From a virus: a stretch of DNA of 32,719 nucleotides. The notes beneath the pieces are model-generated. The model was not told the origin of the DNA. It saw nothing but the letters and a program-made list of their open reading frames with translations, and did no database searches. Of the stretch, positions 27,826 through 32,719 are shown one piece after another (the first letter of the stretch is position 1; each line of letters starts with the position of its first letter). The position numbers were made by a program, and so were the translations under genes. Location of the stretch: the IMG/VR virus record IMGVR_UViG_3300006315_000018, positions 1 to 32,719 of that record. One strand, written 5' to 3'.

Positions 27826-29757
27826 CTATTTTGTTAATACTGCTTCTAATCTGTCTGAAATTGTTCCCATTGCCCATTGACCTAATGATGCAACAACAGA
27901 GTCTTTATATTGCTCTTCATACATTTCTTTTTGAAAATCTTTATTCATTGCAGCAACTGCAGCAGAATGTGCTCTTTGATATGAGTTTTCTGCACTTGTC
28001 ATTGACCATTGTGCTTCATCACGATAACGTTGCCATAAATTTGCCATTTGTGTTTGTGATACGTTTAATAAATTAGCTGCATTAAATTGGCTTGTACTAT
28101 TAATACCAACATTATTTGCTGTGTTAATTGACCTTCTCCATTGGGCATTACTTTGATCAATTATCATTGACATATTGGCATTAAATTTTTCTCGACTGTC
28201 TTCTTGTGTTCTGTTAAATTTATCTATTGCAGATGTTTGTTCAACATTAAAATTTGACATTGCATCTGCTCGTCTTGCATTATATTCTGATACATCAGAA
28301 CCTAACTCTGCAAAAAATTGGTCTTGTTGTTGTTGTGATTTTGCATTAAATTGTTGTCTTGCATTTTCTGCAGCTTCGTAATTAAAAAGTCGTTGCATTT
28401 TTGCTTGTTGGTTTACAGTCTGTGCTTGTTGTAAATTACTTAAATTTGCCATATCCATCTGTAAAAAGGACTGTGCATTTTGTTTTGCAGATTGTACTCT
28501 TGTGTCTAAGTTTCTTACATCCATTGATGCGAATGTTGCTGCATTTGCCATTGCTGTTTGTTGAGCATTGTTTAAATTTGATAAGTTCATATTTTGAGTT
28601 AACTTTGCATTTTCTAATACAACTTGTTGTTGATTATTTAAATCCATATTGTTAACTTCTGTAATTCGTGCTGCATTTAATACACGAGATTGTTGTTCAT
28701 TTGTTAATTCTTGTCCTTGTATTCTGGCACGTATTTCTGCATTTAATACTGCTGCTTGTTGTTTGTTTGAAAGATTTTGTCCTGCAAATTTTTCGTATAC
28801 TTTTGCATCTTGTACTGCAATTGCTACAGAAGATTCCAGTGCTGCTTGGTATATTGCTTGTGCTGCATAACTGCTTCTGCCAAGTCCACGAGCATTAACT
28901 GCAGCATTTGCTGCCCTTACTGCTCCTGCCATAAATGATGGAATGTTTTCGTCTTCAAATTGTGTCGATAGTTTTTGTAGCTGACCCTGAACGGTTGCTA
29001 GCGAATCCACATCTGATGTTTCTGCAGTTACCTGCTCGGCTGATACACCTAAATCAGATAATTTTGTAGCAGTTAACAACTCACCTGTAGCTTTCATATC
29101 GGCAAGTTTAGTGCTATCTAATGCTCTAGTTGCAGCGATTGCTTGTGCTGCTGATCCTGTTGCAGCTGTTGCTTGTGCATCTGTTGATACTGTTCCCTGC
29201 GGTTCAGTCATTTGTGCTGCTGTTGATACTGTCCCAGCCTGTCCTGTCATTTCTGCCAGTGTTTTTGCACTAGCACCTTCAATTGGAATTTCCGCAGCTA
29301 CTCCTGCTGCAGTTTTTGTTGGGTCAGCAACTGTTTGAGCTACTCCTGTTTGTGCCGCTGCTTGTGTTGGAACTGTCCCTAATGTTGGGGTTGCAAGTAA
29401 TTCAGGAGTTGCTTCTTGTATAGGTGTATAAGATAAATCAGTTCCTGTAGGTAATTCTGGAGCTTGAGTTAGACCTGCTTGTTTTTCAACTTGAGCTAAA
29501 GTGTCTTCTGCTCGTCCTTCTACAGAACCACCTGTTTGTTTTTTTTGTATTTTTCCGCCCTCTTTGGCTTTTTCAACGTCTACATATTCTTCGTATTTTT
29601 TGATTAACCCACCTATTTCAGGATGTCGTTCTAAGTAAGGTCCATCAGTTAATAGTGTTTGTAATTTTTTAACGTCACCCTTAACGAATAGACGTTCTAA
29701 CATAGGGTCTATCATTTTTAGGTCTTTTTGTAATTGTCTTGCGTCTCTATCGTCCAT
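27826..29757 (-). CDS. Virion protein with six 22-residue repeats, 643 aa
   Basis: The ATG at 29757 follows GGAGGAAAA at ideal spacing, preferable to the ATG 18 bp upstream. N-terminal globular or helical part (1-65), low-complexity Ala/Thr/Gln/Gly region (about 95-215) with a GTVSTxAQ unit seen twice, then from residue 329 six tandem units of exactly 22 residues, consensus L-[STN]-N-x-Q-Q-x4-N-A. A C-terminal Asn/Gln/Ala-rich helical part follows. Probably a fibrous core or tail component. No named domain is recognised. Confidence 0.6.
   Translation of the reverse strand: MDDRDARQLQKDLKMIDPMLERLFVKGDVKKLQTLLTDGPYLERHPEIGGLIKKYEEYVDVEKAKEGGKIQKKQTGGSVEGRAEDTLAQVEKQAGLTQAPELPTGTDLSYTPIQEATPELLATPTLGTVPTQAAAQTGVAQTVADPTKTAAGVAAEIPIEGASAKTLAEMTGQAGTVSTAAQMTEPQGTVSTDAQATAATGSAAQAIAATRALDSTKLADMKATGELLTATKLSDLGVSAEQVTAETSDVDSLATVQGQLQKLSTQFEDENIPSFMAGAVRAANAAVNARGLGRSSYAAQAIYQAALESSVAIAVQDAKVYEKFAGQNLSNKQQAAVLNAEIRARIQGQELTNEQQSRVLNAARITEVNNMDLNNQQQVVLENAKLTQNMNLSNLNNAQQTAMANAATFASMDVRNLDTRVQSAKQNAQSFLQMDMANLSNLQQAQTVNQQAKMQRLFNYEAAENARQQFNAKSQQQQDQFFAELGSDVSEYNARRADAMSNFNVEQTSAIDKFNRTQEDSREKFNANMSMIIDQSNAQWRRSINTANNVGINSTSQFNAANLLNVSQTQMANLWQRYRDEAQWSMTSAENSYQRAHSAAVAAMNKDFQKEMYEEQYKDSVVASLGQWAMGTISDRLEAVLTK
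28378..28773 (-). repeat. Six tandem 66-bp coding repeats (22 residues each)
   Basis: Leu at residues 329, 351, 373, 395, 417 and 439 starts each unit. Asn at unit position 11 is kept in all six and Ala at position 12 in five. The DNA has diverged, so the repeats are seen at protein level. A 22-residue period equals two 11-residue helical units, as in right-handed coiled coils or amphipathic lipid-binding helices. Confidence 0.8.
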
Positions 29758-30335
29758 TAAATTTTCCTCCAACATAAGTTAAATGATATTGAGATTCTGT
29801 CCTCTTTGGACATATTTGTATCTACGGAATGTTGCAACCATCCCGGAAATACAAGCAAATCTCCTGCTTTTGCATTAATTTCAAATCTATCTTTTCGCAT
29901 TTCGTTTTTTGGTGTCCTAACTGGATATATTTGTACTCTAGGGTCGTATAATACGATTCCCCCTGAATTTTCTGGTTTCTTTACGTAGTAAACTCCGGAT
30001 AAATCAGCTCCCGGATGTATATGCACTTTATTTTCTGCATGTTGTGGATTAAGATTTAGCCACGCAGTATCTAAATCTAGACAATAACCCTCTTCGGGTT
30101 TAAGTTCACTAACTATAGATATAAACAATTGTTCTGTAGCTTTTAGCCATGGTTTTGCTTCTTCTAGTTCGTGAAAGTTTTGTCTACTTTGCCATCCTCT
30201 AACTACAGACCTTAACTCTGTATCGGGATCTTTTTTCTGTAGTTCGTATGTAAATTTTTCTAGGTCTTTATTTAGCTGAGTATTATCTTTAATACGTGCA
30301 TTCCATAGCCAAGTAGAAAATATATCTGTATGCAT
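29757..30335 (-). CDS. 2OG-Fe(II) oxygenase, TIGR02466-like
   Basis: A 192-aa protein with the marks of the TIGR02466 / 2OG-FeII_Oxy_5 family: RGWQS (46-50), VHIHPGADLSGVYYV (104-118), LVFPGWLQHSV (161-171) and DRISISFN (179-186). Candidate iron ligands are H105 or H107, D111 and H169, with R180 binding 2-oxoglutarate. The enzymes use oxygen and 2-oxoglutarate, usually to hydroxylate; the substrate is unknown. Joined by TAATG to the virion protein gene and by overlap to a second oxygenase. Confidence 0.85.
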   Translation of the reverse strand: MHTDIFSTWLWNARIKDNTQLNKDLEKFTYELQKKDPDTELRSVVRGWQSRQNFHELEEAKPWLKATEQLFISIVSELKPEEGYCLDLDTAWLNLNPQHAENKVHIHPGADLSGVYYVKKPENSGGIVLYDPRVQIYPVRTPKNEMRKDRFEINAKAGDLLVFPGWLQHSVDTNMSKEDRISISFNLCWRKI

Positions 30336-30961
30336 TATTTTTCCTGTGCAAAATATTTATGTTCTTTTTTATCATTCTTCCATTCTGCATGTGGTCCATT
30401 TGCGTCTACATAATGAAGAAATACTTGTGCTAACTTTGTTCCTTCGTTGTAAGGTTCTCTCCAATGCTCTACTTCACATCCTTTGTATACCATTGCGTCT
30501 CCTTCATCTAACATTACACGAGCTGTATGACCTTCTCCTAAGTTATGTGTTTTTTTGTAGTCTGTGTTATCGGCATATATTGCCCAAATCTTTTCGTTTC
30601 TTTTTTTTCTAAGACATACTGTCATTGATATTTCACAACTATGTCTATCTTTATGCTTTTCTAAAATATCACCAGCTTTGTAAACTCTAAAAAATGTATA
30701 TGTAGGTAATAATTTCATACCTGTTGCTGATTCTATTTTTGGTAACAGAAAATCTTGTAGGTTTTCCATTACAAAGTCGCCATAAAAGCTAGGTGTGTTT
30801 GGAACTTGTGTGTCTTTGATAGTTCCATCAGGATTTTTTTCAACTCCTTCTATCCTTGCTCTATTGTAGGCATGTATTCCTATGAAATCTAATAGTTCTC
30901 CTGATAATATTTTTGGAACTACTAAATAACCATTATCTTTAAAAAATTTTGCATTAAACAT
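30335..30961 (-). CDS. 2OG-Fe(II) oxygenase, prolyl-hydroxylase-like
   Basis: Start at ATG 30961 (MFNAKFF), just before the previous gene's stop; this gives 208 aa. The double-stranded beta-helix is marked by YTFFRVYKAGDILEKHKD with H103-x-D105, then VEHWREP with H166, and KLAQVFLHYV as the last strand. These fit the HxD...H iron triad. It differs from the neighbouring TIGR02466-type enzyme in motif and strand order, so they are not simple duplicates. Substrate unknown. Confidence 0.8.
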   Translation of the reverse strand: MFNAKFFKDNGYLVVPKILSGELLDFIGIHAYNRARIEGVEKNPDGTIKDTQVPNTPSFYGDFVMENLQDFLLPKIESATGMKLLPTYTFFRVYKAGDILEKHKDRHSCEISMTVCLRKKRNEKIWAIYADNTDYKKTHNLGEGHTARVMLDEGDAMVYKGCEVEHWREPYNEGTKLAQVFLHYVDANGPHAEWKNDKKEHKYFAQEK

Positions 30962-31301
30962 TATTAGTCCACCAATCATCTGACATCTGACGGACCTCCT
31001 CTTCAGTTAATTCAATTCTATCGTGATATGGTTGATCACTAGTTTCATCTAATTTAGTAAGAGCTAATGAGTTACCATTTTCATCTTCTGAATCATGAAT
31101 AGCTAATAATCTATTTCGGAAAGTTGTTTTTGTAAAACGAATAACTGTTTCTGGTATTTTAACTTCAGGATCACCAACGATACCTATATAAGTGTAATTA
31201 TTAGGGTTATACCAATAACCCCCATCGTCTATCCAATAAGGTCTAACTTTTGCACCCTCTTGATTTTTATCCATTTTATATTCTACAATGATGTTTGCCA
31301 T
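30954..31301 (-). CDS. Hypothetical protein, 115 aa, next to the tail gene
   Basis: Acidic soluble protein with a Tyr/Gly/Asp-rich N-terminal part (YWIDDGGYWYNPNNYTYIG) and an acidic helical end (ELTEEEVRQMSDDWW). GGAG precedes its ATG. Lying directly after the Kelch-like tail gene, it could be a tail chaperone or small tail part; no family is recognised. Confidence 0.5.
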   Translation of the reverse strand: MANIIVEYKMDKNQEGAKVRPYWIDDGGYWYNPNNYTYIGIVGDPEVKIPETVIRFTKTTFRNRLLAIHDSEDENGNSLALTKLDETSDQPYHDRIELTEEEVRQMSDDWWTNNV

Positions 31302-31312
31302 ATTTTCTCCTT

Positions 31313-32506
31313 TTATCCTTGTGTATAAGCGTAATATCCTCTGCTTGCTGATATTTCTCCAAAGTCAGCACCATCTCCCGAAGATACTAATGAAAATCTA
31401 TCTATTTGGTCATGATAACCAGATGGGGGCGTTGCTCCACCTGTAGCAAATCCATAATCTGTACTAGAATGTCCAGCATGTCCACCAAAGGTAGTAGACA
31501 TTTCTCCTACATCAGTAGCGTTTCCGGGACTTGAAAATGAAAATGTTTCTATTTGAGTATTTACTGGTCCTCCACCATGCCCTGAAGCCCAAACTCCTGT
31601 AGTGTTTGCATGACAAGCATGATGTCCTTGTCTTGCTGTAACTAAATTACCCCAATCAGCAGCATCTGCAGTTGAAGTAAAAGCAGAATATTCAATAACA
31701 TCACTAGATGTTTGTGGATATGGTGGGGATGCTCCAAAATGATTTCCACCTGTTCTATATCCTCTACCATTTACAGTATCACTAGCACCTGAAGCATAAC
31801 CAACTAAAGCAGATAATTCTGCACCAGAATCTGCTGACGTACTTTCTCCAGATGTACTTAATGTTACCATTTCAATAGTATCAAGTGCTTGTGTTCCATC
31901 ACTTACTGATAAACCACCCATTAACATGGATTTAGTTCCATCAGTAGATGTTGCCATTGATTCTCTATTAGAAGTTAATTCGCCAGTATTTGTTCCACTT
32001 GTAGGAGCAGAAAAACCATGTCTTTCTATATCAGCAGTATTTGTTGGCCATGGGTCTCTTAATCCCCCAAAAGTAAACCCATAAGATTTAGATGAATCAC
32101 ATTGAACTCCAAATCCTTGATTTCTAACTGTTCTACCTGCTTCGCCAAAATCTGTTGCATTAGCAGGACTTGTAAAAGAAACTTTTTCTTGTGTATCAAC
32201 AAGACCGGTGTTTCCATAACCACCTATAATATATCCATTAGAACCAGCAATAGTAAATGGTTCATTAATAATATCTCCCTCTTGTCCATACCAAACTGAA
32301 TCTTCAGCAGAATTATCTGAACAAATAAACACTTGTCCACTTGATGTATTTACCCAAGTAGTACCTGCAGCGTAACCTTCTCCTGTATCATTTGTTTTTA
32401 CGGGATCAGATGAGCTTGTTACAAATAATTTCTTTGATACTTTTCCCTGAGTTACTGAGCCCGGTAAAAAATTTTGTGAATTAAATCTTCTTGGTATATA
32501 TTTCAT
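31313..32506 (-). CDS. Kelch-like beta-propeller tail protein
   Basis: A 397-aa Ser/Thr/Gly-rich protein with very few Lys after the first 40 residues. N-terminal GTTWVNTSSGQVFICSD (about 48-64) is like phage tail-fibre head-binding segments. From about residue 90 come six units ending or beginning with a strand plus Gly-Gly (YIIGG, FTFGG, LMGG, YRTGG, GHGG, FATGG), each with an I/V-E-x-F/S strand and N/G-A-T-D-x-G-E turn, as in Kelch propellers. Probably a receptor-binding or decorating tail protein. No strong ribosome site is seen. Confidence 0.7.
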   Translation of the reverse strand: MKYIPRRFNSQNFLPGSVTQGKVSKKLFVTSSSDPVKTNDTGEGYAAGTTWVNTSSGQVFICSDNSAEDSVWYGQEGDIINEPFTIAGSNGYIIGGYGNTGLVDTQEKVSFTSPANATDFGEAGRTVRNQGFGVQCDSSKSYGFTFGGLRDPWPTNTADIERHGFSAPTSGTNTGELTSNRESMATSTDGTKSMLMGGLSVSDGTQALDTIEMVTLSTSGESTSADSGAELSALVGYASGASDTVNGRGYRTGGNHFGASPPYPQTSSDVIEYSAFTSTADAADWGNLVTARQGHHACHANTTGVWASGHGGGPVNTQIETFSFSSPGNATDVGEMSTTFGGHAGHSSTDYGFATGGATPPSGYHDQIDRFSLVSSGDGADFGEISASRGYYAYTQG

Positions 32507-32512
32507 AATCTG

Positions 32513-32719
32513 TTATTTAAAATGAGGTCCGTGGACCCATCCGACTATACAATATCTAGTACCTCGTGTTACAGGAGTTACTCGATGACGTACATAGGAT
32601 GGAAATAAAATTATTGTTCCTTTTTTTCGTGTTTCTTCATTTGGTGGCATATTTGCTATCTCTAACATTCCACCTTCATATTCTGATGGATCAGATAATT
32701 GTATAGAAAAACTAATTTT
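32513..32719 (-). CDS. PKHD-type 2OG-Fe(II) oxygenase, C-terminal part, cut by the window edge
   Basis: Only the last 68 residues lie in the window. They match the PKHD-hydroxylase (PiuC-like) end: ISFSIQLSDPSEYEGGML, then GTIILFPSYVRHRVTPV and TRGTRYCIVGWVHGPHF. The second iron His is in VRHRV and the 2-oxoglutarate-binding Arg is in GTRY. The HxD motif is beyond the edge. It ends 6 bp before the Kelch-like gene's start, so the two are co-transcribed. Confidence 0.85.
   Translation of the reverse strand, partial: KISFSIQLSDPSEYEGGMLEIANMPPNEETRKKGTIILFPSYVRHRVTPVTRGTRYCIVGWVHGPHFK

Follow-up and report, generated by a model that had tools for sequence, protein, structure and literature searches.

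Paired 2OG-Fe(II) oxygenases associated with Kelch-like adhesin arrays in marine phages, one from a family misnamed ferrochelatase

In marine phages, two families of 2OG-Fe(II) oxygenases form a recurrent pair that is associated with arrays of Kelch-like adhesins and with a conserved coiled protein of about 300 amino acids, here called c300. One member of the pair belongs to PF13640. For the family of the other we use the name P2fam and, judged from its sequence motifs and predicted fold, it is a 2OG oxygenase family misnamed ferrochelatase. Clusters of several 2OG genes in marine phages have already been published (PMC9599517, PMC9602691, PMC9964418); the misnaming, the pairing of P2fam with PF13640 and the linkage to Kelch arrays and c300 go beyond what we found in the open-access papers searched, in which these enzymes, very common in the ocean, have no assigned substrate. 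Our observations suggest that marine phages chemically modify their host-recognition parts, and a defined enzyme pair tied to a defined adhesin module provides a concrete and testable target.

The window analysed here is the whole of a 32,719-nucleotide stretch from a single linear IMG/VR virus record, and its helicase has its closest relatives in Pelagibacter phage HTVC033P and Roseobacter phages of like kind. In a preliminary description of this DNA, three divergent 2OG-Fe(II) oxygenases were placed at 29757-32719, around a tail-fibre-like gene and near the structural operon. Four complete open reading frames and a cut fifth were confirmed there on the minus strand (Table 1); the closeness to structural genes also holds, but the genes lie within the late, structural strand rather than adjoining it. 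The probable start of the P2fam frame is 30961, giving 208 amino acids. Contig L066 is identical to the window end over 2222 bases of overlap and extends upstream from there. It carries the complete 204-aa PF13640 oxygenase gene (L066:7380-7994) and c300 (298 aa in L066, just past the window end), as well as two further Kelch-like proteins, one protein of 120 aa and a fibre-like one of 690 aa. The gene order is the same in contig L002 of a sister phage, where the counterpart of the 115-aa protein has 110 aa and 56% identity.

Table 1. Genes at the end of the window (positions of the window)
Feature	Position	Strand	Remarks
TIGR02466 / PF13759 2OG-Fe(II) oxygenase, 192 aa	29757..30335	-	invariant H105xH107...H169
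P2fam 2OG-Fe(II) oxygenase (phrog_2954), 214 aa as listed	30335..30979	-	invariant H103xD105...H166
115-aa protein, no function assigned	30954..31301	-	confined to the window's phage type
Kelch-like adhesin with six repeats, third of three paralogue slots	31313..32506	-	N-terminal anchor of ~80 aa plus propeller
PF13640 (PKHD-like) 2OG-Fe(II) oxygenase, C-terminal 68 aa of 204	32513..32719	-	truncated by the window end

The middle enzyme had been described as prolyl-hydroxylase-like, and the structural prediction agrees with this. A Pfam profile search of the window protein gave no match, and its AF2 model (pLDDT 84) has a double-stranded beta-helix fold. At E<=1e-3 the model has 579 matches in the PDB, and every one of the 50 listed is an Fe(II)/2OG-type enzyme, prolyl hydroxylases and PHD2 included. 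Although the fold is like that of prolyl 4-hydroxylases and PHD2, the identity of P2fam to them is 10-16%. The window protein belongs to phrog_2954 (5e-47), which, like phrog_3531, is labelled ''ferrochelatase'' in PHROGs; the name also stands in RefSeq and in two papers, which take the gene as a real, co-occurring ferrochelatase (PMC9599517, PMC11561400). Among eight annotated phage records with a P2fam gene, seven call it ferrochelatase (S-PM2, S-SM2, HTVC008M, Mosig, HTVC023P, HTVC033P, and ACG-2014f), and S-CREM1 has ''2OG-Fe(II) oxygenase family protein''; a so-named ferrochelatase of S-SM1 is also among the BFVD matches of the model. A true ferrochelatase is rejected on the following observations: (i) the PF00762 (HemH) profile matched none of the 39 viral P2fam members and none of nine phage records (the eight annotated ones plus the window), with 8 of 14 control genomes positive; (ii) the predicted fold is that of the 2OG enzymes; and (iii) the HxD...H residues H103, D105, and H166 are invariant in the 39 sequences, as well as in a set of nine that includes phage genes annotated as ferrochelatase. 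A conserved Arg/Lys about 10 residues past the distal His was not found in the 39 sequences, in which R92, R106, and R168 are invariant instead. Renaming P2fam undercuts the heme- and iron-metabolism readings in published marine-virus ecology (PMC9599517, PMC11561400).

The enzyme next to it was correctly assigned to the TIGR02466 type (117.3 bits against a curated cut-off of 62.5). Most 2OG enzymes have HxD/E, whereas HxH is invariant in the TIGR02466 proteins and is also present in the solved structure 2rg4. A second gene name is touched by this family: phrog_274, called ''DNA endonuclease V'', matches the window enzyme (2e-9), and proteins of Mosig and S-PM2 with that name have HxD...H...R patterns (L146:8672-9184; L143:1-304), so that this name looks wrong too; a Pfam search of the Mosig protein gave no match. 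The third enzyme clearly falls into PF13640 (2OG-FeII_Oxy_3), with 43.1 bits for the fragment and 62.3 for the full protein against a cut-off of 27, and H126, D128, H181, and R191 are invariant in 22 PF13640-enzyme sequences. Its family profile matches the PKHD hydroxylases PiuC and Sbal_3634, but its score of 73.6 bits stays below the cut-off of 143 for the NCBIfam PKHD equivalogs (PRK05467), and the original label ''PKHD-type'' is therefore valid only loosely.

The presence of three distinct 2OG enzymes was at first regarded as unusual, but clusters of three to nine are common in marine phages (PMC9599517, PMC9964418). Several divergent 2OG genes are carried by HTVC023P, HTVC033P, Mosig, HTVC008M, S-SM2, and S-CREM1 (PMC9599517, PMC9602691, PMC9964418). 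In the clusters inspected the genes adjoin one another; one of them usually bears the name ferrochelatase, and fibre or neck genes are often next to them. A similar cluster in S-SCSM1 is described in the paper on that phage. The clusters of S-SM2 and Mosig adjoin tail fibre genes, and that of S-PM2 is away from them. Kelch arrays and c300 were not seen beside the inspected pelagiphage and cyanophage clusters; the fibres of HTVC033P, HTVC023P, and Mosig are glycine-rich, and HTVC033P keeps all three enzymes with such fibres in place of Kelch proteins.

The clustering exceeds chance, since P2fam has 40 neighbouring 2OG genes at distances of up to 3 kb, where 18.4 would be expected and none of 2000 draws gave more than 31. 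A PF13640 enzyme lies within 3 kb of P2fam at 27 of the 31 non-redundant viral loci, and in five of these 27 the two are fused in one open reading frame, which suggests a common or coupled function. A TIGR02466 enzyme is near P2fam in 14 of the 31 loci, and both partners are present in 13. The most recurrent non-2OG neighbours are fibre and neck proteins. Glycine-rich fibres were considered as a constant partner and rejected, because their frequency in P2fam loci (9/31) is not enriched over that in neck controls (7/22).

When a Kelch-like protein encoded by L014, a T4-like contig, served as bait, 28 contigs were retrieved, most of which have two to eight six-repeat genes in tandem together with c300 and both enzymes of the pair. 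After near-copies were removed, the pair was found in 16 of 21 loci and c300 in 14, whereas a neck gene from the same phage region gave linkage of the pair in only one of 22 loci (Fisher p about 1e-6 on first-pass counts), it being understood that all linkage counts come from pattern-based retrieval, partly of fragments, in small sets (21, 22, and 37 loci) with one gene as the neck control. Before deduplication, P2fam occurred in five of 67 neck contigs, and all five also have c300. The TIGR02466 enzyme is present in only 5 of the 21 Kelch-bait loci; the expected co-occurrence of the enzymes with the Kelch-like gene in other phages is thus borne out for P2fam and PF13640 and fails for TIGR02466. 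Five Kelch-bait loci lack the pair. In L148, L149, and L169 the arrays reach or come near the contig end, and in L160 and L163 they do not run to it; no P2fam was found in the whole records of L149, L160, and L163. When c300 was the bait, P2fam was seen in 29 of 37 loci within the fetched flank and in 32 by whole-record search (it lies outside the flank in L261, L269, and L314), and the remaining five are contigs of <=13.2 kb with c300 mostly near one end.

A linkage to Kelch proteins only was rejected, since HTVC033P has the enzymes without Kelch and a Kelch protein is found in just 2 of the 31 P2fam-bait loci; c300 is found in eight. In the P2fam tree, the window sequence groups with bacterial sequences at 97/83 support, outside the principal clade linked to Kelch proteins. 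Monophyly of the Kelch-linked sequences was rejected (p-AU 0.005, for a group chosen after the tree was seen), and the linkage thus probably arose more than once.

Kelch propellers consist of four to seven repeats, each about 44-56 aa long and marked by a GG doublet. The gene among the oxygenases had been called Kelch-like, and this was upheld: its propeller part has exactly six repeats of about 50 aa, and the family profile matches solved Kelch domains, including KLHL12 (1.4e-5), although the Pfam Kelch models gave no match to these proteins. In total, 107 Kelch-like proteins (near-copies included) have exactly six repeats with a median spacing of 48 and a GG doublet whose second G is invariant. 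An AF2 model built on an alignment of only six sequences reached a pLDDT of 35. Three phage contigs (L158, L159, and L162) each carry eight tandem six-repeat genes of this kind. Two Kelch proteins of L172 start with Mtd_N, which serves as the anchor in Mtd, a known receptor-binding tropism protein of phages; the head of Mtd has a C-type lectin fold, unlike the Kelch-like propeller that probably forms the head of the L172 proteins. When the window type is compared with its sister, the anchors of each slot have 78-89% identity and the propellers of the same slot only 27-48%. The sister slot-3 propeller, on the other hand, is 80% identical to that of L066 slot 1 (86% at the DNA level across 940 bases), and the junction lies at about residue 80 (window 31313-32506; L066:4098-5273; L002:6075-7241). 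Propellers therefore move between paralogue slots, each of which retains its own anchor. The enzymes are under purifying selection, with dN/dS of 0.17 for P2fam, 0.13 for TIGR02466 and 0.20 for the PF13640 enzyme; the value is 0.09 for c300 and 0.43-0.84 for the Kelch proteins.

We are highly confident that the tail-adhesin module itself is real. It would be a late-expressed set of variable Kelch-like six-bladed propellers, c300 and 2OG-Fe(II) hydroxylases, the last being the near-constant pair of P2fam and PF13640, often with a TIGR02466 enzyme. In the reading that we favour, the hydroxylases would act while virions are assembled, either on the adhesins or on a protein associated with them, hydroxylating a side chain with host iron, oxygen and 2-oxoglutarate, and this may alter the folding, stability or receptor binding of the adhesin. 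Modification of a virion protein by these enzymes is plausible, and the chance that the substrate is an adhesin or adhesin-associated protein of the virion appears to us about even. In this scheme we infer the late expression, the enzyme activity, the virion-protein substrate, its residue, the effect and the order of action; the sequential hydroxylation suggested in the preliminary description is speculative, and catalysis is assumed, given the HxH of TIGR02466 and the lack of an obvious 2OG-binding basic residue in P2fam. More specifically, the pair or its fusion might hydroxylate the repeats of interchangeable six-bladed propellers, by analogy with FIH on ankyrin repeats. This is a tentative idea, weakened as far as the propeller would be the only substrate by HTVC033P, which shows that Kelch is not a required partner. 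Swappable propeller arrays beside modifying enzymes would, if true, be a new way in which phages vary host recognition. Since conservation of the enzymes contrasts with divergence of the Kelch proteins, any common target would have to be a feature preserved in the repeats, c300 or a different conserved partner. That c300 or a small fibre-associated protein (the 115-aa protein; PYPSW-type, phrog_7759) is modified instead of the propeller is a sub-case of the adhesin-associated reading, whose share is not to be added to it, and we regard it as very unlikely. With 88% identity, c300 ranks among the best-conserved genes of the module and often adjoins P2fam with gaps from 5 bases; in L014, c300 and a P2fam-PF13640 fusion are separated by a 135-aa protein rich in proline. 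Against this, c300 was not seen in the HTVC033P 2OG cluster and is confined to the minority of P2fam loci given above, and few small proteins of the PYPSW type, a candidate common substrate, turned up in a motif scan.

One objection to a virion substrate is that the linkage could reflect a fibre region that merely collects genes. The enzymes would then be auxiliary metabolic genes in an insertion-tolerant place, acting on small host molecules or lowering 2-oxoglutarate and thereby affecting nitrogen signalling. A metabolic role has been put forward for the cyanophage enzymes (PMC9602691), 2OG genes also occur outside fibre regions (beside head genes in P-SSM2 and beside nucleotide-metabolism genes in ACG-2014f), and the neighbourhood of a Brasilonema P2fam, described below, hints at small-molecule tailoring. 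We consider this explanation unlikely, as free cargo would not be expected to show fusion, near-constant pairing with one partner, several origins of the linkage, or a linkage that includes Kelch arrays and c300 and leaves out the neighbouring neck gene. It is likewise rather improbable that the target belongs to the host, with a surface structure or a protein (e.g., EF-Tu or one of the ribosomal proteins) being hydroxylated as an aid to takeover or a block to superinfection. The P2fam model does match 4iw3, the structure of a Pseudomonas prolyl hydroxylase bound to EF-Tu, and several divergent enzyme copies would fit several host targets; however, the tracking of Kelch arrays and c300 by the pair and its placement among virion genes would be left unexplained.

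P2fam also occurs in cellular genomes (L087:7971-8624; L097:7974-9397), where the neighbouring genes have no consistent function. The Brasilonema copy lies between large genes, one of them encoding a PKS/AMP-ligase protein, and in a Legionella MAG P2fam is followed directly by a PF13640 enzyme. The ''ferrochelatase'' of ACG-2014f (L071:8483-9571) is a P2fam-PF13640 fusion that is not near fibre genes. In S-CREM1 (L067:1302-10781), a collagen-like protein and a tryptophan halogenase accompany nine consecutive 2OG/JmjC genes, and a family matching tryptophan halogenase recurs close to P2fam in six loci.
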